From Muricea muricata (taxonomy: Eukaryota > Cnidaria > Anthozoa > Malacalcyonacea > Plexauridae): a DNA stretch of 64,000 nt. This document shows, piece after piece, positions 1,191 to 61,144 of this stretch (its first letter is position 1; each line of letters begins with the position of its first letter). A program made the translations under genes and the position numbers. The notes under the pieces were generated by a model that worked only from the letters and a program-made list of their open reading frames with translations, searched no databases and was not told the origin of the DNA. The stretch covers positions 45,899,213 to 45,963,212 of the forward strand of contig OY979716.1 in the NCBI GenBank assembly GCA_963855995.1, written 5' to 3'.

Positions 1191-1194
1191 AAGT

Positions 1195-2288: not shown

Positions 2289-2289
2289 C

Positions 2290-6364: not shown

Positions 6365-9300
6365 TTAGAAGGAGAATACAAGTTCCTCACCCTCCAAGTG
6401 CCCCAAAGAACCACGGGCAAGCCACTCTCGCTCAAACGCGCGAATTTGAGCAGCGCTCTTGCACCGTTTAAATAATAAAAGTAAAATGAATTTTAATTTT
6501 GCTATGACTTTATTTAGACATTCGCTAATTATCGGCGTCTTCTGACGAAATCGGAAGTCACAACGAGCAACCCAGATGGTGTGTTTGACAACCAACAGCA
6601 TGTAAATAATGATTGTTGGAATTGCTCGACGTCGTGCTTCCGAAAACCCAAACAATAACTCCTCGACGGTAAACCGACCTGCGGTGGGATTGATGGTATT
6701 TAAGTTGAAGTATACCCATGCAACCAGGATGCGAGCCAGCTCGCATTCGAAGAACAGATGCTCGAGAGTCTCGTCGTCAGCACGACAGAAACAGAGACTC
6801 TCAATGTGGCGCATGCCAAAGCTATGCGCGAGACGAGCACCTGTGTATAGCACGCCGTGTGCTATCTGCCAGTTGAGATCGATAACTTTACGGTCAAGAT
6901 CGCAAATGTGCAACTGACTCCAGGTTTGAGACCAGTGCAACTGACCGTAAATTGGCAGATATTTCTGGATGCAGTGAGGCGCTTTGCTGTTACGAGCCTG
7001 TAAAAGGGCATACACATTCCGTGAGGAGATTTGATCTAACAAGAGAGGAACATCAGAAGACGCATTTAAACTGAGTACATCGCCATTTGCTACGCCGCCA
7101 CCCAAGGTCCGCCATACCTTATGGATGGTTTGGTAGAAAGCAGGAAGTTGTTTCATCTGCTGGCGATAGTACTCAGATAATAACGCATTGCGTGGCTGCA
7201 TGTCAAAGGCCGACATGTAAAAGTGCGTGAAAAAGGCTTTCCATTTGCCCTCAGAAGGGGCAAAGAAGCGCTTCAGCCACTGCAATGCGAACGAGTCAGC
7301 CTTATCTTTGAAATTAATAACCCCAAAACCCCCTTGGGCTTTGGGAAGGCTGACCGTTTTACGTGCCACAAGATCTCTTTTGCCCGACCAAAAGAACTTC
7401 CAGACCGCCGTATTAATGCGTTTTCCCGCCCAAAATGGCACCGGGAAAACGTGGCATAAATGCCAAACCTGGGACAATGCCAGGCTGTTGATGACGACTG
7501 TCTTTCCTTGGAAAGACAGTTGACGGCCTGCCCAAGCAGAAAGTCGCGATTCCAAGTTACTAACTGCCGGTTCCCATGTTGGCATACTGTAATCGCCAAC
7601 GCTGAAGGTCGCTCCGAGCAGGGGTAGTTGTTTCACCCACTGCAACCCATAAGGGGTATCTTGGCGATCCTTCCACGAACCGGCCCACATTCCTTTCGAC
7701 TTTCCGCGATTTAGCCGAGCACCTGAGGCACGTTCGAATTTATTGTAGACGTTGAACGTCTCCTCTATGGACTGATCGTTGGTCACGGCTACGGTCGTGT
7801 CGTCAGCGTAGCCGGAGCATTTGCATGGGTCCATCGAGTGCGGGATGGTAACGCTGGTGATTCTTGGTGACTTACGAATACACTCGGCGAGCACCTCGAT
7901 GGAGAGCACATACAAGAGAGGAGACAAAGGACATCCCTGTCGAACACCCCGCGAGGGGCGAAAGAAAGAAGATGTCCAGCCGTTGATGACGACGGCAGAT
8001 TCAACGTCCGTGTAGAATAATTTGACCCAGTTCATAAAATCTGGGCCAAAGTTAAACGTTTCGAGTACTCGATGCAGGAAACCCCAATCAACTCGATCGA
8101 ATGCCTTCTCTTGATCTAAAGAGAGAAGGGCCAGGGGGAGGTTTTCCCGTTCGACGTACTCGAGGAGATCTCTGATGGTAAATAGATTCTCGCTAATGGA
8201 CCTGCCACGTACGCCACACGTTTGGTCAGGTCCAATAATGCTTCCCATGACACCGAGAAGTCGCCCAGATATAGCCCTGGTGGCGATCTTGTAATCCACA
8301 TTCAAGAGACTAATCGGACGCCAATTCTTGGTGTCCAGTTTATCGTTCTTCTTGTAAAAAACGATAATCAAACCCCGGCGCTGTGAGGTGGAGAGTTGGC
8401 CGGCCTCAAACGCAGCGTTGAGAACCCGGACCAGATCGGCGCCAAGGGTTTGCCACAATGTTTGATAGAATTCCATTGGGAAGCCGTCCGAACCTGGGGT
8501 TTTACCCTTAGGCATACCCTTGAGAGCTTCAAAACACTCGTCAAGGGTAAGATTGCCTTCGCAGCCAGCTCTCTCGGCCGTACTCAGACGACGATGGAGT
8601 TGAGAGAGCATTTCGTCTTGCGCAACAGGATCGCAATCCTGTGCCGTAAACAGGTTCGAATAATACGAGCGCCACACACCCAGGATCTCGAATGGGTCGT
8701 GACGGACGAGTCCAGTTTCTGGATCGCGTATAGAGTGCATCGTCTGTTGGGCTTTATGGTGTGTTTCTAAATTCAAGAAGAAGGAAGACGAAGTCTCTCC
8801 TTCTTCGGCCCATTGGCAACGAGCGCGCACCTGTGCCCCTCGTGCCTCGTGCAGAGCGATGCCTCGCAATTTCTGCTGGACTTCGCATAATTTGCCAAAT
8901 GCAGTTCGATCCCCCCGGTCGAACGATCTTTTTAACTGATGCATTTGGCGTGTGAGAGAGGTTTTCTTGCTGCGTTGGTCGGCAGCTTTCGAACGAGAAT
9001 ACGAACGTGTAACCTCTCTCAAATAAAATTTACCCTGGTCCCACCAGTCCATAAGCGAGGCAAAATCCTCGTGATGTTCGAGGGACTGCCAATGGGACCA
9101 GAACGAGCTCACCAGGCTGACGTACTCGGGATCTTTCAGGAGGGATGTGTTGAATGTCCACACTCCTGGGCCCGAGTCTATCTTTGGCAAAAGATGGAAT
9201 TTCACCAAAAGATACTGATGGTCCGTGAGGAATGACGGATGGTATTCGCATTCCTCGATCGAGTCAGCCATAACCGTTGGAGCCCACACCATGTCGATTC

Positions 9301-9910
9301 GCGACGCACGATCACCCGATCCGTGCGTCCACGAATACGCTATGCGTCCTGGATGTAATTGACGCCATAGCGCGTAAGTTTGTGTATAAGACATGAGTGA
9401 CTCCAAAGCAGCAACACTCTCACGCTTGTGCTCAAAGCGATTAGGTGCGTGAGAAGGATCTCTCATTCGATCCACTTCTGGATGGAGAACGGAGTTAAAG
9501 TCGCCCCCAATAAGGACGGGGCGCGATAGATCAATTAAGTCTGTTAGCGATGTAAAATAGCGATTACGCTCCGGGTTCGTATTCGGAGCGTATAAAGAGA
9601 CAAAACTTAATTGATTCTCCTCAAAGTCTATAAAGACTTGTATAAAGCGGCCATGTTCATCTTTGATAATCCTAGAGATCTTATAGGTATCTTTCACTAG
9701 TATGGCGACGCCTGCACTCTTTGATGTAAATGAAGAGGAGGCGACGCGATAGCCGCTGTTGGCGAACCACTTCCTGGCCGATTCGTGCGAAGGGGTGTGC
9801 GTCTCTTGTAGACACACGACATCAGCCTTCATGCACTTTAGCCAGTCGACCAGGGCGGTTCGCTTAGTGTGGTCATTAAGACCGTTGATGTTGACTGAAA
9901 TCAAATTCAT
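6365..9910 (-). CDS. LINE ORF2 protein: AP-like endonuclease and reverse transcriptase (intact)
   Basis: One uninterrupted frame of 1181 codons. Residues 1-235 are an exonuclease-endonuclease-phosphatase fold: MNLISVNING start, QETH at 35-38, GGDFN at 135-139, TDHQYL at 229-234 carrying the catalytic Asp-His. Residues about 480-760 are the reverse transcriptase: WRPISLLN at 530-537, LSLDQEKAFDRVD at 596-608 with the first catalytic Asp, GVRQGCPLSPLL at 655-666, and YADD at 701-704. A Cys-rich zf-RVT-like motif follows at 1040-1056 (CFCRADDETLEHLFFEC). The protein nicks target DNA and primes cDNA synthesis from the nick. The Met at 9910 is used because the conserved endonuclease N-terminus starts there in copy A as well. 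All catalytic residues I can check are present. Resemblance is to the Tx1/L1 group; exact clade is not settled. Confidence 0.95.
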   Translation of the reverse strand: MNLISVNINGLNDHTKRTALVDWLKCMKADVVCLQETHTPSHESARKWFANSGYRVASSSFTSKSAGVAILVKDTYKISRIIKDEHGRFIQVFIDFEENQLSFVSLYAPNTNPERNRYFTSLTDLIDLSRPVLIGGDFNSVLHPEVDRMRDPSHAPNRFEHKRESVAALESLMSYTQTYALWRQLHPGRIAYSWTHGSGDRASRIDMVWAPTVMADSIEECEYHPSFLTDHQYLLVKFHLLPKIDSGPGVWTFNTSLLKDPEYVSLVSSFWSHWQSLEHHEDFASLMDWWDQGKFYLREVTRSYSRSKAADQRSKKTSLTRQMHQLKRSFDRGDRTAFGKLCEVQQKLRGIALHEARGAQVRARCQWAEEGETSSSFFLNLETHHKAQQTMHSIRDPETGLVRHDPFEILGVWRSYYSNLFTAQDCDPVAQDEMLSQLHRRLSTAERAGCEGNLTLDECFEALKGMPKGKTPGSDGFPMEFYQTLWQTLGADLVRVLNAAFEAGQLSTSQRRGLIIVFYKKNDKLDTKNWRPISLLNVDYKIATRAISGRLLGVMGSIIGPDQTCGVRGRSISENLFTIRDLLEYVERENLPLALLSLDQEKAFDRVDWGFLHRVLETFNFGPDFMNWVKLFYTDVESAVVINGWTSSFFRPSRGVRQGCPLSPLLYVLSIEVLAECIRKSPRITSVTIPHSMDPCKCSGYADDTTVAVTNDQSIEETFNVYNKFERASGARLNRGKSKGMWAGSWKDRQDTPYGLQWVKQLPLLGATFSVGDYSMPTWEPAVSNLESRLSAWAGRQLSFQGKTVVINSLALSQVWHLCHVFPVPFWAGKRINTAVWKFFWSGKRDLVARKTVSLPKAQGGFGVINFKDKADSFALQWLKRFFAPSEGKWKAFFTHFYMSAFDMQPRNALLSEYYRQQMKQLPAFYQTIHKVWRTLGGGVANGDVLSLNASSDVPLLLDQISSRNVYALLQARNSKAPHCIQKYLPIYGQLHWSQTWSQLHICDLDRKVIDLNWQIAHGVLYTGARLAHSFGMRHIESLCFCRADDETLEHLFFECELARILVAWVYFNLNTINPTAGRFTVEELLFGFSEARRRAIPTIIIYMLLVVKHTIWVARCDFRFRQKTPIISECLNKVIAKLKFILLLLFKRCKSAAQIRAFEREWLARGSLGHLEGEELVFSF

Positions 9911-12415
9911 CGTTTGATTCCAGCGTTAAGGGGAGAAACTCCGGTGAGAGAGGGAGCTCGGGACTGGACAACTCCGTAAGGAGTGCCCGGTTAATTTCGT
10001 GGATGGTGGTGGGCTCGTGCGCAGATTCGATGGCGTCAACAGGTGCGCCACACACCAATCGATCGAACAACCCCTGCGACGAAGCAGGGGAAGGCAAAAA
10101 ATCAGTTGACGAAGCAACCGAGCCTGGCGGCGACTCGTCCCCGTCAACTGAAGGTCTATAAAAGACCGGCGTATTGATTTGCGCAGGAGAGGAGATCGGC
10201 GTCACCTCCCCCCCTGGCGGCGATAGTGGGACCACTAACGGGTCGTAAATCAACGAGGGATCTGGGCCGGTTTCACCGGGCTCCAAGATCCCTATCTCAA
10301 CTCCAATTAGGGGAGGGGTACCTCGCGGGTCAGACGTGACCTCCGAGGCCCAAGATACCTCCCCTTCCTCTCTAACTTGGATGAGGATTTCTTCCTCCTC
10401 TTGCATTAACGCCCCGAAGGGCGTTGCCATGGGGTCGAGCGTGACCTCTGGCTCTGGTCGTGCAACATCTAATGTTGTCACGACCGGCGCAGTTGCTGGG
10501 ATTGCCAGTGTCCCATCCAATGGGACTAATGACATATCCTCAGCTGATTGTTGTTCTTGTTGTTGATAGTTGATTTCGTCCGAAGGAAGAAATTTGCCAA
10601 TACTCGATAGCAAGGGGGTCGATAACCGATGACCCCGAAAGACAATAGTCGAGTTCCTCATCTGGAGGAGTTGTGGAGTTGAGCCGGCGTCGCTTATTCT
10701 TACGCAACACGGCGAGGGGAATATCATCTCTGTCTATTTCTGCCTGTGTTGCAGTGACCTTAGCTCTACCCCCCGTCGGCCCTGTCCACGTCGATGTTGT
10801 GATCGTGGAGCTCGAGATCGAGAGGTTGATGTTGTTACTGTGGCTGGTGTTATTGCCTGAGAAGGGCCACTTCGACGCCTACGCACCCGTAGTGTGGTTA
10901 TCGTGCGCATGGCGGTGCGCACTTGGCCAGATTTCGCAGCAGCCTGTTGTTCGGCCTCGATGATGCTGGCCGCGAAATCTGCCTCCGTAATTCCCTCTGA
11001 CTCGCTGGCCGATGTTGCTGGCATGTTGAATTGCGATCTTAACTGTTTCAATTGCTGAGTCAGAGGCGGTGAAGTCGAGTGAGACTGAACTCTCAATGGA
11101 CTGTCAGCCTCACTCTTTAACTGGATGGATTTGGTGGCCCCATCCAGTTTGTCTTCGGATCAGCGTGATCCGAAGATCTCTCATCATCCATTGACTGGAC
11201 GGATGATGAGTCTTTGATTTCTCCCGGCTCTAATTCGTCGTCCGATGGTGGTGGAACGTTAAACATCCTGCGTAAAGTTGCAAGATGTTGAGCCGGGGGC
11301 GATGTTGTTAGTACAGAAGTCTCCTGTGAAGGCTGAGTATCCATCGACTCAGCCACGGCTTTGGGGGATCGAGCGACCTCGTCTTTAGAATTTACGTCAT
11401 CAGTAGCACTCGATTGACCCTTTGACAATGACTGGCCTTTGGCACGGCCAGCCTTCGATTTGGTTGGGAGAGATTTTGAAGCAGGAGCCTGTTCTGTCTC
11501 CGAAGATTTTAACATGGTCTCCTGCTTTTTATTTAATTTATTACGTAAATCTGTCTCCCCCAACGGAGACTTCTTTTTATTTTGTGTTGTCTGGACCGTG
11601 CGCTTGGCACCGTCCAGTTTTATTTTGAGGTCGTCGTGACCTAAGGCAGGCTTATTGTTGTTAATGGCCTTTTTAATGCTCTGTTTGGTGTTATTTTGAG
11701 CTGTGTTTTTTCCCGTCGCTTTGGGGAGGTTTTGTTGTTGTTGTTGTTGACTTAATCTCCTCCCCTGTCTTGATTTTGGGCAGTCCTTGCTCGCATGTCC
11801 CACCTCTTGACATACGTAGCATTGCGTGGGCTGCCCACGGTAATTAAACGCGACGGGAAATCCCCCAATGTTGATAATGCGTGGGATGGCCTTGGTCACG
11901 ACCATTGACACCCTGCGCGTGCCTGATCGCACGGATGGGAATTCTTTGATTGTTAAGTGTTGGACGCCAATAACGCGTCCGTAGGGTGCCAATGCTTCGT
12001 ATAGATATTTGTCCTGCACGTGAAGAGGAGCCCCCCCAACGAAGACCGACCCGACCCCCCCGTATGCAGGCAACGGCGCCAAGTGCACGCCTCTAAAACT
12101 AATGCCGTTGATCTCGGCGGCGTGCCGGTCCGATGAATGTTTGTATTGAATATGGTATTTAATGGGAGACAAGGCCTGCACGGCAGAAACCTTGCGCTCC
12201 CCAACGGCATTGATAAGTTTCTTTCTAAGCTGCGGAATCTTACTGTTTTTAATGAGACGCGATGGAATATGGACCACCGAAGTGGTTTGATTCCAACGCT
12301 GGAAATCCGCAGCTGTAAATTTGGTGTTAGTGCCAGCATTAATGTTGGTTTTGCTGGCATTTGCATATGTGTTGTTGTTATGCAGATTATGGTTTGTATT
12401 CAGGCTCGTAGCCAT
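9876..12415 (-). pseudogene. LINE copy B, ORF1 (CCHC gag-like), frameshifted
   Basis: The start Met at 12415 (MATSLNTNHN) opens a frame that runs to 11117. It holds the conserved N-terminal domain (SVVHIPSRLIKNSKI), the CCHC zinc knuckle (CYVCQEVGHASKDC), a Q-run and a charged disordered region. At about 11145 a base present in copy A (ttgatcttcgg) is missing here (ttgtcttcgg), which shifts the frame. The tail continues in a second frame (to about 10734) and then a third (10727-9876), all matching copy A, so at least two frameshifts are present. The last segment ends 35 nt inside ORF2. ORF1 normally coats element RNA; this version would be truncated before its C-terminal 40 percent. Polymorphism or sequencing error in a homopolymer-poor site seems unlikely but cannot be excluded. 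Confidence 0.85.
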
Positions 12416-13215
12416 GGTGATTTTAAACGAATTACAATAATCAAATATATACAAGAAAGACCGTAGAGTCGCACACGAAGGCTCTATTGCAAATAGAGTG
12501 CTTCAAAACACAGAAATGACTCTAGGTCTTCACTAGAACACAATTGTCGCCTAAAACCTACCTACTATTAAGGGACGCTTACGCTGGCACGTACTCCAAA
12601 CGCAAGACCTGATCTAAAATAATGTCCCTTAATAGAATACAGCAAGGATCGAAACGATGACCCTTACTGCGACTACGAAGAGTACTTCAATCGTATGAAG
12701 CACTCCAAAGACGCGCTCAAAACCCGAAGTAAAAAGCAAGAAGTCCAAGAACCCCGACAATGAAGCGTCAAAGATGCCTGAAAAAGATCACCCGGTGGCC
12801 TTTGAGTCTCCTCGACTCGACGGGCCCAACCACGGAAGAACTATAAACCACTACCTAGAACGTGTCCACAATACTCTATGGTGTAGTAATTATGTATGGA
12901 AGTGCCCAGTTAAGCCGGACACCGGAAGACAAGGTAGGCTAACCCTACCGCCGATCTCCGAAGAGACCGACAAAGAAAAGAAGGGGAGTTGCTGGCAGCC
13001 GTACCAACTGAGGCTAACCCTCAGCCCGACTGTCCCCAGCGGAAGCAAACTACGAGGAGTGTAAGAATGGATATGTCCGCACCAAGCACCTAGGGGGCAC
13101 GGCTAGTTGATTCCCTATACCCGGAGTTAGGGCGACCACTGCCCAGCATCGACTATCCTCAGGTATAAGGATGAAGGCACTAACGCAGGTCAAGTGACTC
13201 GCGTCAGGCAAGTAT
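12416..13215 (-). promoter_or_regulatory. LINE copy B 5' UTR (putative internal promoter region)
   Basis: About 800 nt upstream of ORF1, matched along its length by copy A 4830-5630, with no shared open frame. It ends near 13215, where the sequence changes to that of the truncated 3' end of copy C. The promoter label rests on what is known for LINEs of this type and not on a recognised core promoter motif. Confidence 0.5.
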
Positions 13216-13329
13216 GAGTTTCAATAGTGCAGGCACTCATGTTTTATTCAGCCAACAAGAATGGAAACAAACGTGGTTGTTGTGCAGCACTCTAATTTGC
13301 ATGGTTGCCCTTGCCTTGCCAGATTCGGT

Positions 13330-15540
13330 ATGTTTATACTTGGTGGTGTAATCACCAACGCTGAAGGTCGCACCGAGCAGTGGTAGTTGTTTGACCCACT
13401 GTAGCCCATAAGGGGTATCGGTACGATCCTTCCAGGAACCAGACCACATAGCCTTCGACTTGCCTCTATTTAGTTTAGCGCCAGAGGCCCTCTCGTATGT
13501 AGAATAAACTGAGAAGGTCTCTATTGATTGCTCCGTAGTGACGGCCACGGTGGTGTTGTCTGCGTAGCCGGAGCACTTGTACCCCTCCACCGAGTGGGGG
13601 ATGGTCACGCCCTGAATTTGCGGAGATGCATGAATGCACTCCGCAAGCACTTCGATGGAGAGGACATACAATAGAGGAGATAGAGGGCACCCCTGGCGCA
13701 CGCACACCCCTAGTGGGGTTAAAAAACGAAGACATCCAGCCATTTATGATAACGGCCGACTGGATGTCCGTATAAAATAAACGGACCCAGTTGCGAAACT
13801 GGGGCCCAACGTTAAAAGTCTCGAGTATGCGGAGCAGGAATCCCAAATCAACCCGATCGAAAGCCTTCTCCTGATCTAATGAGAGAAGGGCGAGGGGAAT
13901 GTCTTCCCGCTCCACATACTCTAACAGGTCTCGCACTCCAGCGAGATTCTCACTGATAGTCTGGCCACGCACACCGCACGTCTGGTCCGGACCAACTATA
14001 GTAGCCATGACACCAAGAAGGCGCCCCGAAATAGCTCTGGTAGCGATCTTATAGTCTACATTGAGGAGGCTAATGGGGCGCCAATTCTTGGTGTCGAGAG
14101 GGTCATTCTTCTTGTACAGAACGATAATCAGTCCTCGGCGCTGGAAAGCTGGCCGGCCTTAAAAGCTCCATTGAGGACACGGACCAGATCAGCACCGAGG
14201 GACTGCCAAAATACTCTATAAAACCCCATAGGGAGACCGTCTGACCCGGGTGTCTTACCGTGTGGCATGCCCAAAAGGACGGCCCAACATTCATCAACGG
14301 CAAGACACCCCTCACAACCAGCCCACTCAGCCTGACTTAAGCGACGTGTCAGCTGAGAGAGCATGGTGTCTTGAGCGATGGGAGCATACACCTGTGCGGT
14401 AAATAGGTTGTTGTAATACGACCGCCACACCCCTAAGATCTCAAATGGGTCGTGGCGGACCAGTCCAGTTGCAGAGTCGCGTATCGAGTACATCGTCTGC
14501 CGGGCATGATGTTTGGACTCCAGGTTCAGAAAGTAGGAGGAAGAAGTTTCTCCCTCCTCTGCCCATTGACAGCGGGCACGAACCTGGGCCCCTTTGGCCT
14601 TGTACAGAGCGATGTCCCTCAACTCCTGCTGGACTGCGCACAGGTGTGTGAAGGCCGTTCGATCTCCCTGCTCAAACACCTCTTTTAGTGCGTGCATTTG
14701 TTTAGTGAGAGAGGCCTTCCTGCTGCATTTGTAGGCAGCTTTGGCACGCTCATAGGTGCGGGAGACCTCTCTCACATAAAATTTGCCCTGGTCCCACCAG
14801 TACATCAGGGATGGAAAATCTGCGTGATTTTCCATGGACTGCCAGTGGGACCAGAACGAGGTTTTTAAATTGATGTACTCGGGGTCCTGGAGGAGCAAAG
14901 CATTCAGCTTCCACACCCCTGGCCCCGAGTTAAAATGTGGTGTCAATGAGAATTCCACCAACAGGTATTGGTGGTCGCTAAGGAAGGATGGGGGATACTC
15001 GCATTTTTTGATGTTATTACTTAATGCTGTTGTGCCCACACCATGTCGATCCGCGACGCCTGGGTACCGTCCCAATGCGTCCATGAGTACACCGTGCGCC
15101 CTGGGTGTAATTGGCACCACAGCGGGTAGGTTTGGGTGAACGACATGAGGGACTCCAATGCAGGAATGCTTTCCCGTTGCTGAGCAGCAGGCCCAGCAAC
15201 GTAAGTGGGATCTTGCATCCTATCCTTAGCTGGGTCTAAGACAGAGTTAAAATCACCGGCCACAAAGGTTGGCCGGGATAGATCAATTAAGCCTGTTAAC
15301 TGGGCGAAAAAATTATTACGCGCCGGGTTGCGATTTGGCGCATACAACGAAGCAAAACTAGCCTGGCCTTCCCCGAAGCACACAACGGCCTGAACGTAAC
15401 GGCCATCTTGATCCTTGATGATCTTCGTGATCTTGTATGAATCTTTGACAAGGATGGCGACGCCTGCACTCTTTGATGTTAAAGAAGAGGAGCCGACGCG
15501 ATAGCCGCTGTTGGCGAACCACTTTCTGGCAGGCAAGTTA
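13330..15540 (-). pseudogene. LINE copy C, ORF2 fragment with YADN in place of YADD
   Basis: A minus-strand copy begins at 15536 inside the endonuclease (ARKWFANSGYRVGSSS) and runs to about 13335 (LLGATFSVGDYT), so both ends of ORF2 are missing. The frame shifts near 15050, 14150 and 13700. The linker (AEEGETSSSYFLNLE) and RT blocks (LSLDQEKAFDRVD, RQGCPLSPLL) are readable. At the catalytic box the codons give YADN, so the second catalytic Asp is lost. At protein level it differs from copy B at many positions (for example HSVEGYKCSG against HSMDPCKCSG), so it belongs to a distinct subfamily or an older insertion. The left breakpoint near 13335 is followed by unrelated sequence and then the copy B 5' UTR. 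Confidence 0.85.
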
Positions 15541-15544
15541 AAGA

Positions 15545-15890
15545 TTTTTCGTATCAGGGGCCTGGGGACGCAGTGTTACCTTGGCAACAAAATTAAAAAT
15601 GGTTTTTGATGCATCTTGTCATGTAGTATCTATGTGCAAAATCTTGTTGAGTTTGACTGAATAATAATTGAGTTATGCTCGTTTATGTATTATTAAACCT
15701 ACTTACCCAACTAGTGACCTCACAACTTTTGCTGAATCAGCGGTTTATATTTTGCACATTTTTGCGAATCTTCGAAACTAAAGAAGATATTCTATTACAG
15801 TAAACGGCCAAATAGCTTATTTTTTCATGCTCTTTCGCATGAAACAATAAAAATTTTTATTGCCAATGCCCTTTAAAATCAAATTTTTTG
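15545..15890 (+). repeat. Dispersed repeat, second copy at 34086-34420
   Basis: About 340 bp are shared in the same orientation with 34086-34420, with scattered differences. Markers include ggggac near the left side, gttaccttggcaacaaaatta, cctacttacccaactagtga, and an end in aataaaaatttttattgcca. At the second site this sequence is the right arm of a fold-back element (33529-34813), so this copy is a solo arm. It abuts the truncated 5' end of LINE copy C. No open frame. Confidence 0.8.
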
Positions 15891-15934
15891 TTGAATATTC
15901 CATGTTTGATCTCTGAATCTACTAAAACAATTAC

Positions 15935-16023
15935 ATTACGAGCTCGAGATTTCTATGCGGTGATAGTTTATTCGGGCTTCGCCCTCATCAACTATCACCG
16001 CATAGAAATCTCTAGCTCGTAAT
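15935..16023. repeat. Long hairpin, 34-bp stem with one mismatch
   Basis: The arm 15935-15968 is the reverse complement of 15990-16023 except at one base (ctcgag against ctagag). The 21-nt loop contains gggcttcgccc, itself able to form a 4-bp GC stem. The arms start attacgagct and read through tctatgcggtgatag. A second hairpin with a GC-rich loop lies at 40924-40986. The arms could be the remains of a very short fold-back element or a cruciform-forming site; no coding potential. Confidence 0.9.
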
Positions 16024-19724: not shown

Positions 19725-20578
19725 GTTTTAGAACCGTGCACATTCTGGTGAACCAGTATACCCTGATGCAGAAGTCACAAAAACTGAGAGACTTCTTTTA
19801 TTAATGTGCTTTGTGTTGAGACATAAACTCACTGATGTGGCATTAGGAGATTTGTGATTGTTGCTCAACACCTTTTTTCCAAATACTGTTCCAGCTACAA
19901 AACATCTCTTTTATAAATGGTTCAAGCTTGAACATTCAGAAGTATGTGTATACATTTTAAGCTGTTGACACAAATTGATAACTAGTTTTTTAGATACCTG
20001 GTGGTAAACCTTCTTTTCCCTTTCTTCTTAAACCTCCTTAAATCTTCTAAGGTGTTACTGTACATAATTGATTAAAATTTGAAAGAAACAGTCCCCTGCA
20101 CTTGAATGTAGCTATCTCTCTTGTTATGAACGAAAATATATGCAGATCATACTTGATAGCATATTTAAGCTAGCTAGCAAGCTAGCTAAGCTCATTTTCT
20201 TGTTACCTTTTTTCAGTTCATATTTCTCTCTGGTCTACAAATACTAAGCTTTCCTAGAAACATATTGCACATACTGTACATACCATGTATACGTAATGTT
20301 TAGATAGATTTGAGCTGTTTTTTATCATGCATTGATGTTGCTGAACATTATTTAATTCTTTACAATTCTAGAAGCACTTCTACTGCTCCAAATGTACTTC
20401 TTACTTGGGTAAGGATACACCTGCAATAATTACCTGCGAGTCATGTGACAGTCCATTTGATGAAGGTGACAGTTTGAAAAATGAACATTATTTCATTTAC
20501 ATTCCTCTCCAGCAACAGATTACTATACTACTATCAAATACTAAGCTTTATTTACACTTTGGAGGACCATTTGAAAAA
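19725..20578 (+). pseudogene. N-terminal piece of a TNP2-type (CACTA-like) transposase
   Basis: Two blocks are readable. The first (about 19730-19945) reads VYPDAEVTKTERLLLLMCFVLRHKLTDVALGDL, then a stop, then VPATKHLFYKWF. The second (about 20370-20578) reads KHFYCSKCTSYLG, a CxxC pair, CESCDSPF with a second pair, and NEHYFIYIPLQQQI. In position and sequence these match the N-terminal region of the minus-strand gene at 55976-58477 (for example LLALQQKHNF and NILKLFQVTLPSGNKCPSSNYKL, then its CQKC block). The gap between the blocks may be an intron. The catalytic middle is missing; after 20555 the sequence switches to a hAT transposase. Assignment to TNP2/CACTA-like elements is by remembered resemblance. 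Confidence 0.65.
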
Positions 20579-22060
20579 TTGTAGTAAAAATAAGAGCTAT
20601 ATTTCTAAGACTAGCCAGAATAAAATTGTTAAATGTTGTGGTCAGGTGATCAGTAAACAGATCATTCAAGATATTAAGGCTAGTAAATTTTATTCTATTA
20701 TTGCAGATGAGGCTGCAGACTCCTCTCATAATGAGCAAATGTCTCTAGTGCTACGTTTTGTAGACATTAACGTGAATATTCCGGAAGAATTTATTGCTTT
20801 TCTTCAGTGTAGGTGGGGGTTGTCTGGTGAACAACTTGCCAAGTTAATTGTGGATGCTCTTAACGAGCTGACTTTATCTATTGACGATTGTCGAGAGCAA
20901 GGTTATGACGGTGCAGGTGCTGTGGCAGGACATATCAATGGTTTGTCAGCTAATATTTTACGACTTAACGAGAAAGCCCTCTGTACGCACTGTTATACTC
21001 ATCGACTTAATTTAGCTGTATGTGATTCCTTGACTGTTGTTGAGGTCAATATCATGTTGAAACAGGTTAAGGATGTCTCAAATTTTATTATGTCCCAGAC
21101 ACGCAAAATTCCTTTTGAGAATAATGTCCACAATTATTCTGAAAGCGAATCTCAGAAGAGGCATCTGGTAGATGTTTGTCGGATCAGATCGGTTGAGTGA
21201 ATTGCGGGTTTAGATACATTCATTGAGCTTTTTGTCCCTTTATTTAACACTCTTAAGGAGATGAAAGATAATTTGGAAGGCAGGTATAGACCACCCCTTG
21301 TCACTGACGCCACTAGCTTTTTTGAAAATGTAACAAAGTTTGGGTTTATTGCAGCTTTGGTCATTTCTCACAACATTCTTGATCGACTTCTCCTAGTAAC
21401 TTTATTACTACAGGGAAAGAGTATTGATATTATGGATGGTATTCATTTAATTAACACTGTGAAAAATTATTTTACTAACTTTAGAAATTCCATTGATTAG
21501 GAAGACAAACAACTAAATCTAAGCCTCCATATAAGTCAATTTCAGAATATTATAAGCGTACCATAAGAATTCCTTTAGTAGACCATATTAATTCAGCTTT
21601 GCAGCACAGAGTGGCACTGACAGTGTTAACGTTTATAAAGGACTAAGCGTTGTACCGACAAAAATGATGTCTTTGAAAGGAAAAGGGCAAGACTGGCGGG
21701 ATGATTTTAAAGTGGTTACTAATTTTTCACTGTGGACGTCACTGTGGACGACTTATTGGGAGACGTACTAAGGACTTCTTCCTGACAACATTGCCATGAC
21801 TTTAAAAGCTATCAATTTTGATGGTTTTGAAAATATTAAAGTTATTCTCCATATTTTAGCAACACTTCCCATCACTTCTTGTGAGTGTGAAAGAACCATT
21901 TCGGCATTGAGGACACTTAAAAATTACCAGCGTAGTACAATGGTGGAACAGCGGCTAAACGGTCTAGCCTTGGTGCAAATTCATCAGGAGATTATCCCAG
22001 ATATTGAAAAAATTGATAAATTTACAGTTGGATATACTAGGTTGAAAGTTACGTAACTTT
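20555..22060 (+). pseudogene. hAT-family transposase (DUF4371/P52rIPK-like), decayed
   Basis: The frame from about 20555 to 21200 reads SYISKTSQNKIVKCCG, then ASKFYSIIADEAADSSHNEQMSLVLRFVD (DUF4371-type block with the expected D-E-A), GYDGAGAVAGHINGLSANI and CTHCYTHRLNLAVCDS (the conserved C-x2-H region). A stop interrupts at 21198. A second segment (21261-21500) and a third (21796-22056) follow, the last carrying the hAT C-terminal dimerisation block (LPITSCECERTISALRTLKNY). Such proteins cut and paste hAT elements. The multiple stops and a gap near 21500-21790 rule out function. It lies between the N- and C-terminal pieces of a TNP2-type transposase, suggesting insertion or recombination into that gene. 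Confidence 0.8.
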
Positions 22061-36239: not shown

Positions 36240-37272
36240 GATGACTGAAGGTCACTGAAATTAACATTGTAATCTTGAAAATTATTTCTATCTCACTAGC
36301 TAGTTGCAATTGTTTTGTCTATTATATTTTATGTCTAATAGCTAAAAATTTCTACGTAAATCTCAGTGCATTTTGTACTCACAGTGATAAAAAATGTTGA
36401 GCCGTGACACGACCTTCGTATCTACATAATTATATATGTCATTGTCCTACCACATTGTACATTTAGCATCATACACGGTTATATTGCACATTTTGCATTC
36501 ACGACAAAGATAATTACATGATAGCATGATTAACATAAGTTTCCTGCTGTGACAATTGGCATAATGACATGTTCAATGCAACCTGTAACCGAATATAATT
36601 GCAGTTATTATTATACATTCAACACATCAACATGTTACAGAAGTTTTGCGAAAGAATGTCTCAATTCAGGGTAGCTATTCAAACAACCGAGATTTTATAA
36701 GTGGTTGACTGATTTTCTACGTGGTTTTTGTATGATTGTGTCTCCAAACTACAGTATTTCAGATGTGCGCTTAAAGGCAGGAAGATATACCATGCGTGTT
36801 CAATATGGCAATCGAAGATTGTGAAATTACTGAAAATATATACTGCATCAACTGGAATAAGATGTCACAATGTGATAGGTATGTTATACAACATAATAGG
36901 GATATCTGAATGAATTAAGCAGGATATGTGTTCCCCAGTTTGTTTCATGAGATGCTAGTCTGTCAACGAGTGCGTCGAAATTGCTGATAAATGAATGGCG
37001 CATTTCGTTGCCATTTTCATTTTAAAATTTACGCAATGTAGACAAACACTTATATATGACGAAACATGGCTGGCTGGCAGAATACCATACAGTTTGCAGG
37101 CTTGCATGCATTGTCCGTGTAGACAAAACTTAGAGAAAGTTCATCGCTTAAATTCAAGCGCTCCTTCGACCACGCAGTTTACAATTATGTGCACATCACA
37201 TGCTTAATTTTAAATTGGCTGAATACATATATAGATATTCATATAGTAATTGTAGCTTTGATATGCTCTCAT
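36240..37272 (-). repeat. Right inverted arm of the large element, inner part
   Basis: This is the reverse complement of about 26350-27375 with modest divergence, for example the cattgtaatcttgaaaatta block near 36268. It ends at gctctcattgtggtt, where the LINE begins, and the arm resumes at 44673 (aatacagcaaatgcgcac). A few bases of the arm are lost at the LINE junction. Confidence 0.8.
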
Positions 37273-39639
37273 TGTGGTTATTGGTTATTGTTATTGTCTG
37301 GTAAATTCGACATGTTGATTATATCTGAGACGAAAATAGACGAGACCTTCCCTGACAGCCATTTTCATATTGACGGGTTTCGCATGTGTCGTGTGGACAG
37401 AAAATTAGGTGGTGGTGGATTGATGGCATTCGTAAGAAGTGATATTTGTTTTTCTGTTATCAAACAATTTAAAAATATTTCGGCTGATGAATTGTCAACT
37501 TTTCGAACTGAGTCATTAATATTGAAGGTGAAAGTAAAGCAGACTTGGATTGCTGTAGTTGGGATATACAGACCACCTTGTATTCCAAAATATAAATGGA
37601 AATATGAATTAAGTATTTTATTTGAAGCCATAACTGAGATTACAAATGATGTTTATATCCTTGGGGACTTTAATTGTGATTTGATACACCCCAACAAACC
37701 TCCAATGGATGGTCGTGATTTGAATGATTTATTAGATATTTACAACCTAGCTAACTTAATTAATTCTCCGACAAGAATTGATAAAACGTCAGAAACATTG
37801 TTGGATATTATTCTTACAAATAACAAGGCTAAGGTGCTTACATCGGGTGTGATTGATGTACAAATCAGTGACCACAGTTTGGTTTATACAATTTTACGAA
37901 GTTCTGCCCCTCGCTCTCGTTCCAGGCAAATAGTTACAAGAGCCCATAAAACCTTTAAGCGTGACGAGTTTCTGAATGACTTGCAAAGTATACCGTTTAG
38001 TGTGATGGATATCTTTGATGACGTTAATGACAAACTTTTTGTCTTTGAATCATTGTATATGGATGTAGTTAAGGAACACGCTCCGCTTAAACGTGTGCAT
38101 CTTAGGGGTAATCAAGTCCCATTTATGACAAAACAATGGAGGCAAGAGACACGTTATAGAAATAGACTTTGGAAAAAGTATCTAAAGGAGCGAACTGATG
38201 AGAATTATTGTACATATAAAGCTCAAAGGAATGTATGTACAACATTAAGAAGAAAGGCAATCAAGGACTTCTTTAGAAAGAAAAATGAAGAGAATAGTCC
38301 AAGAGAATTCTGGAATGTTTATAGACCATTTTTGCATTCGAAAAGCAAGCAGGCAAATGACATTTTCATTAAAAAAAATGATGTTGTTATTAATCAGAAA
38401 AAAGACATTGCAGAAATTTTTAATAATTATTTTGTGAACATTGCCGATGACTTGGTAGATAAAAGTCTACAACATGATTATGCTTTAGATTTCAACGATC
38501 ATCCAAGTGTGCAATCAGTTATTAATACTACAAAAGAAGGAGTGATTACATTAAATTTCTCGTTGAAATGTATAAATGAATTGGAAATATGCCACATATT
38601 AGCAAATATAAACACAAGAAAGTCTTGTGGTCACGACTTTCTTCATCCCAGAATCGTTAAGGAATCTGCCGCCGTTATTGCTCAACCCCTAGCTTGCATA
38701 TTTAATGAATCTATTAAGCAGTGTAAATATCCAACAGTGTGGAAAATGGGACAGGTTACGCCGTCATTTAAGAAGGGCAATGAACTTGATAAAACCAACT
38801 ATCGCCCTTTAACTGTCCTTCCTGTTTTGAATAATGTATTCAAAAGAACCATTGCATCGCAGATGGAAGAGTTTTATAATGAAATATTATCTGATTATAC
38901 ATCTGCCTATAGAAAGCAATTTAGTTGTGAGACTGCGTTACTTGGGCTTGTAGAAGACTGGAAAAGTAGTCGGGATAAGAAAGAACTTGTCGCAGTTGTA
39001 TCGATTGATCTCTCGAAAGCGTTTGATACCATCCCACATGATCTCCTACTAGCCAAACTCAAAGCTTATGGTATGACGAAGGAATGCTGCAGTTTTTTTC
39101 AATCTTATCTGAGGAATAGAATGCAGCGTGTTAAAATTGGTGACACATTTTCTGAATGGACAATGGTTAAACGAGGAGTCCCGCAAGGCAGCGTTTTGGG
39201 GCCAATGCTTTATAACATTTTCTCAAGTGATCTATTTCACTGTATACCTTCTGGTAAGCTTCATTCGTATGCTGATGATTGCCAAATACACGATTCACAT
39301 ATGGAACCTAGTGAACTGGATAAGCTAATTCAAAATTATGTTACAAGTGTTAATCAATGGTTCAGGATAAATGGCATGATAAGTAACCCAAGTAAACATC
39401 AAGCAATGGCTCTGGGAAATAAATTACACCACAGATTTTCTTTCCCAACAAAGAACTCTTTGGAATTATTTGGTATGACAATTGATCAAGATCTGAACTT
39501 TGATAAACACATTATTAACATTTGTAAGAAAGTTAATGACCAATTTAATGTAATGAAGAGATTTAGCAACCTTGTATCAAAACATACAATGTTGTTATTT
39601 TATAAAAATTTTATAGTACCACGTTTTAATTACTGTGCT
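37273..39639 (+). pseudogene. LINE ORF2, endonuclease and RT, interrupted by a transposon
   Basis: The frame is open from the truncated 5' end. Endonuclease motifs: IISETKID, LGDFNCDL, ISDHSLVYT. RT motifs: YRPLTVLPVLNNVF, VSIDLSKAFDTIPHDLLL, GVPQGSVLGPMLYN and YADDCQIH, all with catalytic Asp residues. At 39639 the coding sequence (FIVPRFNYCA) stops at a transposon. Skipping the transposon and one copy of the 8-bp duplication, it resumes in the same frame at 44101 (DIWHFCGARNTKKLEDLNKHILRFIL). It reaches a stop near 44311, with further matching C-terminal sequence (GLHSFRYEAVKRWNSLPD) after it to about 44519. The LINE was thus nearly open when hit, so the transposon insertion is fairly recent. 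Confidence 0.9.
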
Positions 39640-39846
39640 ATGGTGGCCCAGCACTGCCATTTGATTTTTTGCATTATTTTTTAAATTTTTTGAATAAAAT
39701 CTCAATATTTTATTCATTTTTTAATTCTAAATATTATTAATTTAGAAATTGTTGCTTTGCATTTAATATGCATTATTTAAAAAAAAACCAAAAAATATCG
39801 CACCAGCGGCCCAGCGTTGCCAACACTATACCACATTGCATTGCGC
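39640..39846 (+). repeat. Left terminal inverted repeat of the integrase/alpha-kinase transposon
   Basis: It matches 43882-44092 in inverted orientation almost base for base, with slippage only in the A-tract near 39777-39792. Low divergence between the two TIRs fits recent activity. Subterminal repeat ggcccagcgttgcca lies near the inner end. Confidence 0.93.
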
Positions 39847-39974
39847 AAAAACACTTATTTGCAAGCTTACATGAAGTAATGTCAACATTTCTAAGAAGAT
39901 TGCTTTCGAAAAATCAAAATTATAAACTGCACATTTATAGTTGTACAATGAAATGTTTTATGTAACATCACAAA

Positions 39975-42119
39975 ATGCAGCGATATGTCGGTTGGGATGA
40001 AGACTTCCATTAACAAGAATCTCTCAAAAAGTATGTGAGTGTAGGTTATAAACAAACCGAGATTCTTAGTTTTGTCAGTAGAGATTTTCCTCAATACCCT
40101 TGGAGTTTACGTAGTGTAGATAGACGTCTCCGTCATTTTGGTATCTACTATACCGATCATAACGTTGATGTTGAGGACGTTCAACAAGCTGTTGCTAAGG
40201 AGTTAGATGGACCGGGCAAACTGTTGGGGTACCCTGCAATGCACAAAAAAGTTCGTCAGGTACATCACCTCAATGTTCCTCGAAAGCTTGTGAACGAAGT
40301 CATGTACGATCTTGATCCAGAAGGCCTTGAGGCACGCGCCCTTGCCACAAATAGACCGCGAGTTAGAGGTAATTTTACCACGAAAGGTGTTAACTGGGTG
40401 CACGCAATGGATGGACATGCGAAACTGATGGGATTTCAGAAAAACACTTTCCCTCTTGGTGTGTATGGCTGCATAGACACGGCAAGCGGAAAGTTGTTGT
40501 GGTTGAGAGTGTGGACCGGAAATTCTGATCCAAAGTTAATTGGTAGCTTCTACCTGGATTATCTCTATGAAAGTAGAATGATAGCTAGTAAGATAAGAAT
40601 TGATAAGGGTACAGAGACTGGAAAGATGGCAACATTACATGTGTTCCTCAGACGACACCATGGCGATATGGACCCTCTTGAGACTGTTATATATGGTCCA
40701 TCAACAGCAAATCAGGTGTCAATATACATATCTCTTAACATGTGTGGAAATAAGTTCAATTAATTTATTTTTGAGTCGGTTTTCTTTGATGTACCGCGGG
40801 TTGTATATAGGTTATTTACCTTGGATAAATAATTAGATCAAAGTTGCGGAAAAATCTCGACGAATCTCGACTTAAATTGTTCAAAGTCAAAAGACTGTTA
40901 GAAAACACCTCCTCAAAAGTCGGGATGTATGTCATATACAGCTCTCGGACGCTCCACGTCCTCGGGGACTGTATATGACATACATCTCTCCTTCTCAGTA
41001 TTTAACTCTAACATAGTGTTGAGGTGAAAGAGTGTTTTGTTTTATGATTCCTTTGATTTGCAAAATCATGACCAAGTAAAATAATATAATGTTGAAAACA
41101 AAAAATCTCATGCAATGGCACTTTGACCCTGTGGCAGAAATAACTTTACATTTCTATGGTGTGTTGCATCTTCATAATACATAGGCAAACTCTTTTCAAA
41201 CTTCTTAGATTGAGAGATGGTGGAGAGAACTTCACCAACACCTTGAAAAATACTTTAAGGAGCACTTGCTGTTTTTAAAAGACAGGCACCATTATGATCC
41301 TCATAGTGATATTGACAGGTTTGTTTCAAATTAGTTTCCATGATTAACAGAGATAAATTTTCATTTGGTTTTAAACCCCAGAATCCCTAATATAACCCTA
41401 AAGCCTTTTGGATTGTTAATCGATATTTGCTGCGAGAGTATGTTTTTATTCATGGATTTTGAGAGCATTTTACCTTCATGTAGCATTAAATTTACTTTTT
41501 AGTAAATCAACTTTTCTCTTTAAGATCTACACTGGCATATTTATTCATCCCTCTCATACAGAGAGAGGTAGACATTTTCAAAGATGTTGTGTGGAATGCA
41601 CACAGGATCCGATGTCAGAAAGAAACATATCTTCCAGATGGAGTGCCAGATCACATTTACTGTTTTCCTGAGGAATACCAACTTGAACAATGTGGTATAT
41701 ATCACACATTATTTATGCTGAACTTTTATGTTTCAAGTTATTTATTGTCTTTGCTAATAATGCAATTGTTATGAATTATATCCACTTTCAAACAAATATC
41801 CCTTGTTATTTCTCAAATATATTTAGTCATGTAATAGTCTTTTCTGCAAAATTTGGCACCTTCAGTTTTTTCTAAAAATATACTTTTCCTAGGTTTTGAA
41901 ATTACTAGTGCTCAGCTTGAAGAGGCAGCTATTGAATCTGGTGTTCTTGAGGGAACTGACGACTACATGGGTGAAGAATTTCGTGAAAAATGTGAAAATA
42001 TTTTGCCCAACCCTGACCAAGTGGCTGCTAAAGATTGTGCAACAACATTTATTTTCCTGAAAGAGAGATACATTACCCAACATCATGAATATGAAATGAA
42101 CATGTCTGAGACGTCTTAA
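39975..42119 (+). pseudogene. DDE integrase/transposase (rve, rva_4-like), four exons, one early in-frame stop
   Basis: Exons that join in phase: 39975-40715, 41209-41318, 41564-41694, 41893-42119 (introns gt..ag; 402 codons plus stop). The N-terminal part resembles a helix-turn-helix region (YKQTEILSFVSRDFP..WSLRSVDRRLRHFGIY). The integrase core has D146 (HAMDGHAKL), D210 (RIDKGTET) and, across the first splice, E249 (IERWWRELHQHL), a D-D-38-E arrangement. Following blocks (DVVWNAHRIR, PDGVPDHIYCFPEEY, C-terminal LEEAAIESG) match the same family as I remember it. The protein would cut and join element ends. Oddity: with the Met at 39975 there is a TAA at 40011-40013; the downstream frame is clean. 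Either a different 5' exon supplies the start or this copy is freshly inactivated. Confidence 0.8.
40924..40986. repeat. Perfect 18-bp-stem hairpin in integrase intron 1
   Basis: Arm gatgtatgtcatatacag (40924-40941) is the exact reverse complement of 40969-40986, with a 27-nt GC-rich loop that has a small inner ggac/gtcc stem. Design recalls the hairpin at 15935-16023. Its position in an intron means it would be transcribed with the integrase gene. Confidence 0.9.
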
Positions 42120-42338
42120 ATACCAGCTATGAGTTGTTACTGCATGAAGCCAAGACAGCAGGATAATCGTTTGCACAAGCAAATACAAACATTAAATAAG
42201 AAATCTACATCTCTTATATCCCTTTCAAACAAAACTTGTCAATGACAATTACAAACAATTTAAAGATGTAAATCAAAAACATTAATAATGTTAATAATGA
42301 ACATGGATGTACTATAGTTTGTTCAGTAGTGTTACACT

Positions 42339-43813
42339 CTAATGTAAAGTTTTCAGGCCAATACTTTTACAATACGCATTGCAAGAGTGGTTTTGGCAGA
42401 ACTTGCTGATAGCTTCAACAGATAAGTTTCCAATGCAAAACTGATACTCATCTTCCTCAGAAAGCAACTCAGAGGAAGCAATTTCTGGATCACACAATGA
42501 ATCTCCAGCACCTTGAATATCTAAAAGCATTAACTTGCAATCACTCTTTTCAAACGAAAAGTGCACGAGACATTCTGCCTTTTGACAATAGGTGGTTTTT
42601 TCACTTGAAATGGACCCATCATTGTTGACAAACTTTCTGAAATCACCTTTGATGAATTCTTCAATTGTGACATACTCACCTAACAAGTTAAAGATGGCAT
42701 AATTAATTAGGATCTGGTATAAGAAAGAGAAAAGCAACAAGGTACTTTGAATATTTTTTATTAATGGGGTAACTGAAGCTTTGATCTACTGATCATTAAC
42801 ATGTCACTTGCAGTAATAATGATCAAGGTTTGCCACATTTCACAGTGACAAAGTAATCACATCTCACCTGTTGCCTCAATCTTCCCCATAAAGATGCTGT
42901 TATATGAAAACAGTTTCACTGGTTCTGAATAGTCCAATTCATTGAATTTTGCCTGTAGTTGATTTGCAAAACTTTGTGCCAAAACATGGGTTTGTACAGT
43001 TTTCTTTGTATAACTTTCAATGGTTTGGTTGGTTTGCTCAATAGTTTCGAGGGTACTGGCTAGATATTTCTTGACCACCCATTCTTTCTTACCAAATTTC
43101 GGAGTTGGACTGGTTGCTTTATATGCTCGTCGAAATCCACCTTCCCCAAAATGAGTGTTTTCAATTAAAAACTCTGCTTTATCAGGTATTAGAGTCCATG
43201 TCAAGTTATCAACATGAAAAGTTGAAACATCAATGACAGACAAATCAGACGGTGCTTTGGCCACCCTTCCAAGATTCAACATTGTAGACAGAGACAAACT
43301 TTTTGGAAAGGTCTGGCTTCTTTTGACAGTAGATCTCTTGGGTGGACTTTCAGCAGACTTAGCATGCCTACTATAATTGTTGTCGCGCACGGATAAACTT
43401 ATTGACGAACTGACATCCTTTCTGGGACCAAGGGAACGCATGGACATGCCTACTTTGTCAACTTCGACCAGTCGTGGAATAAAGCGAACATAAATTAGCT
43501 TAAGATCGGGTATTTGATGCAGTGATGTACATGTAGGACCACGCTCGCCAGCAAGAATGTCTACTTCCATGGCTTTCCCAATGTGGCCTTCTCTTTGGAA
43601 GTGGATTAAACAGGCCTGTTTTATACCATCTATAGTAATATCCGAATTCTTGTATGGGATGAACTCTCGAGGTCCAATTCGAGAATACTTTTGTACCTTC
43701 TACAGATGAAGACAAGCGCTGGACTGTCAGTTCATCTGACTGTCAGTTCATCTGATTGTAACATCTCTTTTTGCTTTGATCTTTTCTTCGTAATTTTTCC
43801 ACAAGGCCGACAT
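42339..43813 (-). CDS. Alpha-kinase (MHCK/vwkA-like), transposon-borne, spliced
   Basis: Two exons are certain in phase: 43699-42868 (after a ctgtag acceptor) and 42679-42339 (after a gttag acceptor), giving 390 codons. A 5' coding start at 43813 (MSALWKNYEEKIKAKRD) is probable but its donor is unclear. The N-terminal part (REFIPYKNSDITIDGIKQACLIHF..DVLAGERGPTC..IPDLKLIYVRFI) resembles a domain I remember next to alpha-kinases in cnidarian proteins. The kinase domain follows: EGGFRRAYKA and WVVKKYL (nucleotide-binding lobe and Lys), then across the splice EYVTIEEFIKGDFRKF, ECLVHFSFE, LLDIQGAGDSLCDPEI (catalytic Asp and GxGD) and GNLSVEAISKFCQNHSCNAYC (zinc-binding His/Cys). These are the family's key motifs, so activity is plausible: Ser/Thr phosphorylation of unknown targets. 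It lies convergent to the integrase and wholly inside the TIRs. A short direct duplication (cagttcatctgactgt) sits upstream at 43728-43755. Confidence 0.82.
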
Positions 43814-43881
43814 GATGAATAATGCAACATGTATTTGAACTTCCACTTTAATTTCCATTAATCTATTTCCATTTTTGCACG

Positions 43882-44092
43882 ATGCAATGTGGTATAGTGT
43901 TGGCAACGCTGGGCCGCTGGTGCGATATTTTTTGTTGTTTTTTTTTTTTTTAAAATAATGCATATTAAATGCAAAGCAACAATTTCTAAATTAATAATAT
44001 TTAGAATTAAAAAATGAATAAAATATTGAGATTTTATTCAAAAAATTTAAAAAATAATGCAAAAAATCAAATGGCAGTGCTGGGCCACCATA
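43882..44092 (-). repeat. Right terminal inverted repeat of the integrase/alpha-kinase transposon
   Basis: Mirror of 39640-39846. The A-tract is a few bases longer here. Directly outside lies the second copy of actgtgct (44093-44100), followed by the rest of the interrupted LINE. Confidence 0.93.
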
Positions 44093-44672
44093 CTGTGCTG
44101 ATATCTGGCACTTTTGTGGTGCAAGAAATACAAAGAAATTGGAAGATCTAAATAAGCACATTTTACGTTTTATTTTAAATGAACACAATTTAAGTTATAG
44201 TGAACTGTTAGAAACAACTTCTCAAGTTTCACTGTATAATAAGCGATTGGCTAGTATGCTAGCAACGTGTTACAAATGTATACATTATGAAAGATATCCA
44301 AAGTACCTAAAATAAATATTAAATAGACGAAGTGGATAGTACTTATTACGTGGTACGGATATTATTGATTTACCAAAGGTTATGACCACAAAGTATGGAC
44401 TTCATTCTTTTCGATATGAAGCAGTTAAACGTTGGAACAGTCTCCCAGATAGCTGCAGGGTTCAAGATACTTTGCGAAAATTTATTAAGTCAATATCTGA
44501 CATAAACTTTGAAAATTAATTATATCAATTAAGGTGTACTTTACTTGACAATGTATGTAGCTATAGTTTTAGTGTGGTTTATGTGGTTAAGATATTCGAA
44601 GATATTAGCTTATATATAGCTATCAAAAATTCGAATTTAAATAAAGTTTATTGTATTGTATTGTATTGTAAT

Positions 44673-58827: not shown

Positions 58828-61144
58828 ATGCCTCCTAAGCCTCGCAAATCTCTCGACTCGACGCGATTGCAAAACTCACTTCGTGCAAATATTCTAAACC
58901 TGGTACGTTCATTCTAGTAGACGTTCTTCAATTTGTTTTCTGGCCATTTTGTGCAGTAACGCTGATACATTTCCTATGTGCTTTAACGCTGATGAACTGT
59001 TGTACCTGTAGATTTCCAACCGTTTCCAAGCACTCGCATGTCGTGCTGTGTGGAAGGTCGACAGCGAAGATATAGAACTGGCGAGACATCAAATTGCGTC
59101 GAAACGTTTGCGCCTCGATGACATATTGTCTGCAACACAAGGCGTTCAATTTTACTTCTCTTGCGTTACGAGTGTGATGTGCAACGCGAAGAGCTCCCAA
59201 TCCGTTCCAGCCGAAGGTTCTGCATCGAAGGAAAGTTATCCTGCCATAGCTTTCTTTATTGTGTATAAGAAGTGCGATACGTGTAACGAGTCTACCTTGT
59301 TTTCGGCTTTACACAACGAAGACATGGAGCCAGAAATAACGGCCATTCGAGTGAGAGCACAATTGGCTTCGTACTCCAACAAGGAGATGGAAACCGCCGC
59401 ACGTCAACTCTTTAACGTAGTAAAGGATCACAACAACGGCACTATACAAGAAATGTTGGACGTTTCCAATGTGTACTGCTTTCGAAACGCCCAAGAGTCG
59501 TCGTCTGACAGTGATGAAGAGGAGCTTGATGATCTCCTTCATTCCCAATCCACGCGTTTCCCCCTCCTTCCTTGTTGTCTTTTTGTGGTTAACCTGCAGG
59601 AATTTGGCGATCAACTAACTTCAGCAATCGAAAATCTTCGTTCGGACGGGCTCGTAGTTGAAATGGGTGCAGGACATGGCGTTAATCTGGACAACTCCTG
59701 TTTCGCGTCCGACAGCGACTTGGCCACAACGATCCATCAAATCGATAAGGTGATGACCATCTGCCACCACGCCATATACCGTTCTGACGTGTACGCCAAG
59801 CCAGACGAAGCTTCCGTGACCTTCGTCAGAATGACAGACGTCGCCAGTTATTTGCACTGCCTACTGGGTAACGAGTCGCTTCGTGATAATATGCTTCGAC
59901 ATTTCGCGTCGATACAGAAATTCCTGAGTCATCCCGCGTGCGAAATAATACAACAAATAAAATTCGATCTGGATCTCATCGAGGTAGCAAATGGTTACTG
60001 TTTCTCCATAAAAACGCGAAGCTTCATTCCTTGCCCCATACCCTCGTCAAAGCTGGGCAAACTATCTCCAAGGGCGTTTGTACCATACGACCATACTACC
60101 CCGCCAAATCCCCAGTATTTCCGAGAAGCAATCCTCAACTCCTTCCCAGACGATGACGAGCGTGCAAAGTTTTTGAACAAATTTTACCAGTGCCTTTCCG
60201 CCTTTAACATGCCACACAAGGTGAAAAAGTTGGTCGTGGCAGGTCCAAAAGATTCCGGGAAGACTTCGTGGTCGAACATTTTCCATCGCATTATTCCATC
60301 TGCAGCCATCGCCTCGCTTACGAAAGAAAAACAGTTTTCCGCGGCGATGATAACAAACGACACGCAGCTTGTGATCGTTGATGAATGGTCGGCGAGCACT
60401 ATGGAATCAGACCTCGCAAAGAGCATTTTGCAAGGTGGATGGATGGTGACTGCTGTGAAACACGGAGTACCCCGTACTGTGTTGAACAACAGTCCCTACT
60501 ACATCACGACGAACCACGTGCCAGACTTCGGTGATGAGGACGAAAATGTTAGGAGACGCATCGACATATTCACGACCGAATCCCTACCTCGTCCCAGGCC
60601 AGGCATAAACCGTTGGTTGTACGATCATGCTATGGACTGCATTGCTTGGATCGCGGATGAAATAAATGGCAACCGAGACGTAATTTCTGACACCGAGTTA
60701 TGGTATGAGGGTAGCAATTCTGAACCGCTGACGATCGCCGCAAACGAGGGAGAATTATTGTTCGACAACGCCCAGTTAAGAGCCATTTCGGAAGCCGATC
60801 TTCGTCCCGAAAATGTAGATGAGCCAAATCCACCGGTGATCCACGATACTTTTGCCACGGAGTTTCAAGTGCGACACATGAGACGAAAGCGGAGAAAGGC
60901 ACGACAAACACCAGTCATCGAGAGCGACTCCTCAGACGCGGACATCGAAGTCCCTGCCAACATTTGTACTGCCGCGACATCTTCTCCATCCTCGTTGCAG
61001 CAACCGTTGCCGAACCTAGTAGACGACGAGCATCCAGTAGACCCGGAGGAATTGCTACCACAACCCCACAACCAGGGAGACGGCTGCAGTAATGACGACG
61101 TGGACGAACAGTTCCAAGATGCGCGCGATCAATGGAAATCATAG
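58828..61144 (+). CDS. Superfamily 3 helicase, virus- or transposon-like, two exons
   Basis: Start Met at 58828 (MPPKPRKSLDSTRLQ); exon 58828-58902, intron 58903-59011 (gtacgt..ctgtag, 109 nt), exon 59012-61144, in phase, 735 codons. Residues about 340-375 (DLIEVANGYCFSIKTRSFIPCP) recall the segment before the helicase in D5-like proteins. The SF3 core follows: Walker A GPKDSGKT (436-443), Walker B LVIVDEW (478-484), motif C YYITTNH (521-527), and an Arg cluster VRRRID (539 on). A basic stretch (RRKRRKAR) and an acidic, Pro/Ser-rich tail follow. SF3 helicases unwind DNA at replication origins of small DNA viruses (parvo-, papilloma-type) and related elements. Base composition is visibly richer in G and C than the neighbours, a sign of different origin. 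I cannot name the family; no HUH nuclease motif is evident. The frame ends at a TAG that may not be the original end. Confidence 0.8.

Follow-up and report, generated by a model that had tools for sequence, protein, structure and literature searches.

How does an alpha-kinase gene come to lie beside an integrase gene, between two long inverted repeats, inside the interrupted open frame of a long interspersed nuclear element (LINE)? The question is raised by a 64,000-nucleotide stretch of the Muricea muricata genome (GCA_963855995.1, contig OY979716.1, positions 45,899,213 to 45,963,212 of the forward strand), hereafter the window, in which an element of 4,454 bp (39639..44092) with TATGG...CCATA termini carries both genes. 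Few cut-and-paste elements of eukaryotes are known to bring a signalling enzyme with them. Judged from its sequence features, the element is very probably an IS3EU-type transposon with two resident genes that face each other, whose kinase has stayed a working enzyme along its lineage. Both genes are present in each of three independent insertions, so the kinase is resident in the element and not a one-off capture.

These insertions were recovered by searching the host genome (453 Mb) with a 211-bp repeat query and scoring all eight candidates; the resulting counts are lower bounds. The eight repeats form four pairs on a single contig, namely the window copy and three others (L009, L010, and L011), and all four pairs enclose both genes in convergent layout, with the alpha-kinase opposite to the integrase as in fungal IS3EU elements. 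Further loci with the same integrase and kinase between terminal inverted repeats, and with differing duplications, had been predicted in a preliminary description of the locus and were found; the kinase is missing from none of the four pairs, so the converse case, in which every other repeat-bounded copy lacks it, does not hold. The insertions are distinguished by their target-site duplications: CTGTGC in the window, GTGGTG in both L009 and L010, and CACGAG in L011. L009 and L010, which lie at ~75.31 and ~75.17 Mb on contig C1, ~140 kb apart, represent one insertion that was later duplicated, because they share both the GTGGTG duplication and their flanks (on the upstream side for ~350 bp, on the downstream side for 2.5 kb or more); they are 97.7% identical across 6,275 alignment columns that take in the element and 98.6% identical over a further 1,104. 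The window copy, L009, and L010 diverge from one another by 1.2-2.1%; L011, which has many gaps, shows 6.3% divergence from these three over the aligned bases. A single chance capture of the kinase is ruled out by the three independent insertions with both genes.

The left (39639..39851, + strand) and right (43872..44092, - strand) terminal inverted repeats, delimited by repeat search, alignment, and the genome repeat query, measure ~213 and ~221 bp. The long, near-identical repeats first reported for this locus are real: 39639-39793 pairs with 43938-44092 at 98% identity and 39779-39851 with 43872-43944 at 95%, and the 20-nt tip, allowing up to 3 mismatches, occurs at just two places in the window, the two ends of the element (0.00 expected). 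The TATGG...CCATA ends are common to all four copies, the flanks reading GTGGTG-TATGG...CCATA-GTGGTG in L009 and L010 and CACGAG-TATGG...CCATA-CACGAG in L011. The target-site duplication had been given as an exact 8 bp (ACTGTGCT), but this length is exact in the window only and fails in the other two insertions, which match at 7 of 8 bases. With T...A ends to the element, a 6-bp duplication matches at 6 of 6 bases in all three independent insertions (in the window, CTGTGC at 39633..39638 and 44093..44098). The window duplication mimics 8 bp because the target there happened to be A-CTGTGC-T.

The insertion can also be read from its target. The LINE frame (37123..39638, + strand) is split by the element and resumes after 44098; as the preliminary description had stated, the frame is restored outside the element, the open reading frame coordinates placing the continuation in the same frame past one CTGTGC. 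The interrupted codon, GCT, is made up of 39637-39638 plus T on the left and of 44097-44099 on the right. Nine further copies of the LINE were found, three of which (L014, L015, and L017) span the insertion site, while L016 and L018 stop short of it and the other four matches begin further downstream. Because all three site-spanning copies are empty, with one CTGTGC each and no insert, the event was a true transposition into the LINE.

The integrase is encoded on the + strand by four exons with GT/AG junctions: 39975..40715, which holds the D of DGH and the D of DKGTE; 41209..41318, which holds the E of IERWW; 41525..41694; and 41893..42119, which includes the stop codon. The spliced product matches rva_4 (PF24764) with 78.1 bits (cut-off 26; E 9.5e-22), compared with 20.7 and 18.5 bits for single exons. 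The D, D, and E, which from their motifs we take to be the DDE triad, were compared among 57 relatives, and each is conserved in 90% or more of them. In the window copy, the frame is interrupted by a stop at codon 13 (40011-40013). Intron 1 contains an inverted repeat (40912-40998) with 30-nt arms of 83% identity separated by 27 nt; L011 is gapped over about half of this intron.

The alpha-kinase is encoded on the - strand by two exons, the first of which (42868..43813) comprises the start region, a short separate N-terminal domain, a linker, and the first part of the kinase domain, and the second (42339..42679) the E, DIQGxG, DPEIA, and H/C/C site and the stop codon. The position of the ATG was set by likeness to protein P0001. 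The two genes converge, with stop codons ~220 bp apart (42119 vs 42339). The spliced kinase covers the whole Alpha_kinase profile (PF02816, 1-185 of 185) with 119.3 bits (cut-off 21.3), its exons scoring 94.8 and 17.4 bits singly. The introns of both genes are supported because each spliced model outscores its separate exons summed, which bears out the four-exon integrase and spliced kinase of the preliminary description. The window kinase carries the ATP-binding Lys, the catalytic Asp/Gln, and the zinc-binding H/H/C/C, roles assigned by analogy with ChaK1. Among its relatives, the catalytic residues and the first zinc His are kept in 78-80 of 80 and the other zinc ligands in 72 of 75; no other Pfam domain is common to more than 2 of the 80. 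The kinase had been described as usable, and this holds for the domain, which is open with its motifs present; the N-terminal part of the window copy is out of frame, with a break upstream of ~43697. With this break and the stop in the integrase, the window copy does not hold fully usable genes and is a decaying relic. Among the other copies, L009 has both kinase exons and integrase exons 1, 3, and 4 in open frames and lacks the codon-13 stop (its exon 2 is below the size of the reading-frame listing), L010 has an open kinase and an integrase interrupted in exon 1, and L011 is decayed.

The element is filed as IS3EU-type on four features: its ends, the length of its duplication, the apparent type of its integrase, and the orientation of its kinase. 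IS3EU transposons, which are not separated from GingerRoot, share with it the TA..TA ends and a duplication that is usually 6 bp long; their integrase is IS3/IS481-like, as that of the element probably is, and they are described as lacking an HHCC zinc motif ahead of the core (Kojima, 2023, PMC10045372). Ginger1 and Ginger2, with duplications of 4 bp or 4 to 5 bp, do not fit the 6 bp found in all three insertions, and neither do the 8-bp superfamilies hAT and Merlin, an 8-bp duplication being exact in the window only and each of the other two insertions having one mismatch among the 8 bases. Polinton/Maverick elements are large and carry their own DNA polymerase and capsid genes; the element described here is 4,454 bp. 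They too have a 6-bp duplication (PMC10045372).

Most of the named relatives of the two proteins are cnidarian, coming from Dendronephthya, Exaiptasia, Actinostola, Clytia, Porites, Acropora, Paramuricea, and Oculina, a distribution that by itself points to a probable cnidarian host; outside this group, the named relatives are from Ciona and Lingula for the integrase and from Saccoglossus for the kinase. The kinase family, characterized by an N-terminal domain of its own, numbered 196 proteins in one search and 166 in another. Six kinase relatives (P0255, P0265, P0313, P0314, P0070, and P0013), one of them from Saccoglossus, are labelled TRPM6, eEF2 kinase, or alpha-protein kinase.

Several points weigh against an IS3EU-type transposon with a maintained kinase. 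The ratio of non-synonymous to synonymous substitution rates (dN/dS), the comparison of which had been proposed for the kinase, is nearer neutral among the close copies, at 0.60-1.18 for the kinase and 0.65-0.91 for the integrase, and the L011 value is blurred by decay. Since the count of repeat pairs is a lower bound, there may be copies without the kinase. The IS3EU assignment is a probable one, read from sequence features. Finally, kinase and integrase relatives fell on a contig of the same size in only three pairs among 116 and 115 rows, one of 4.4 Mb, and these pairs are a hint, no more, of kinase-integrase pairing beyond the element's own family.

Against this background, the broadest account can be put forward only tentatively. 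The alpha-kinase may be a core gene of IS3EU, old and under selection, that has accompanied the integrase since before the animal/fungal split, or has spread between the two groups, and that acts as a regulator through a ubiquitin-like targeting domain; some cnidarian and rust alpha-kinases would then be transposon genes. The alternative that survives best, though we consider it doubtful, is that fungal and animal IS3EU elements each gained a useful alpha-kinase independently and arrived at the same layout by convergence. The fungal study (PMC12730594) reports that TET/JBP genes have passed from one transposon superfamily to another, unrelated one, and it leaves room for parallel captures at comparable positions. 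However, both the gene pair and its opposite orientation are the same in the two groups, a comparison made by layout and not with the fungal kinase sequence. It is unlikely, in turn, that a host alpha-kinase was captured by the element family and is carried as a passenger without helping transposition. The dN/dS values among close copies and the broken state of both genes in the window would agree with such a passenger, as would a kinase function that is putative, being read from the sequence. Yet the kinase family with its N-terminal domain is widespread and keeps its catalytic residues, and fungal TET+ IS3EU elements likewise have an alpha-kinase opposite the transposase (PMC12730594), neither of which is expected from a recent host capture. 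Nothing was found in favour of an assembly artefact, or of chance repeats around two unrelated genes, and this reading is rejected as vanishingly improbable: the three independent insertions have clean duplications, the site is empty in three LINE copies, and the element copies fall into two levels of divergence.

For an element with two resident genes, the ends, duplications, and catalytic triad point to a mechanism in which the DDE integrase would bind the long inverted repeats, excise the element, and insert it at a target site whose strands are cut 6 bp apart. The alpha-kinase, as the second gene, moves along with the element. Our leading guess, a tentative one, is that the kinase aids the element by phosphorylating either the integrase or factors with which the host acts in chromatin, repair, or silencing, and the N-terminal domain may be its targeting part. 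The rest of the probability, beyond this role and the passenger, goes to other roles of the kinase.

Elsewhere in the window, a 710-aa open frame at 59012-61144 (+ strand) matches DUF5906 and, weakly, a papillomavirus helicase, and an open frame at 20478-21200 (+ strand) contains DUF4371, a domain known from hAT-like transposases. G+C content is 46-51% over positions 1-16000, where LINE-type frames lie on the - strand, and 33-39% over 16-56 kb.

A kinase kept in both animal and fungal elements would indicate that phosphorylation has a part in transposition or helps the element to escape silencing. The partnership of transposon and kinase is possibly old, and why a transposon keeps a kinase is an interesting question. 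There is also a practical side, as a protein that a cnidarian record calls 'TRPM6-like', 'eEF2 kinase', or 'alpha-protein kinase' may be the product of a transposon gene. In fungi, the alpha-kinase family is reported to be highly expanded in rusts and absent from Microbotryomycetes (PMC4469406), and the rust expansion may reflect IS3EU elements.

Among known alpha-kinases, TRPM7/ChaK1, MHCK A, and eEF2K have the same kinase fold and catalytic and zinc residues as the kinase of the element, which differs from them in its own short separate N-terminal domain. Among transposons, cargo kinases had been thought not to be a described class, but an alpha-kinase in a eukaryotic cut-and-paste element is already in print for fungi: according to Kojima (2025, PMC12730594), TET+ IS3EU elements are known from rust fungi and Tuber, and in all their families a TET/JBP gene stands between transposase and alpha-kinase genes of opposite orientation. 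The word 'kinase' is absent from the main text of the earlier IS3EU/GingerRoot paper (PMC10045372), and no animal case of alpha-kinase carriage was found among the open-literature papers listed, of which, judged by titles and excerpts, Kojima (2025) alone reports such carriage, the search having covered neither subscription journals nor Repbase. The rust TET+ families resemble the Muricea element in their opposed genes, TAYGG..CCRTA ends, terminal inverted repeats of more than 30 bp, and 6-bp duplications (PMC12730594). They differ in having fungal rather than animal hosts and in their TET/JBP gene, whereas here the ~220 bp between the stop codons hold no third gene; the kinases of the two are compared here by gene layout. 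By this analogy, the element looks like an animal counterpart of the fungal kinase-bearing IS3EU elements.
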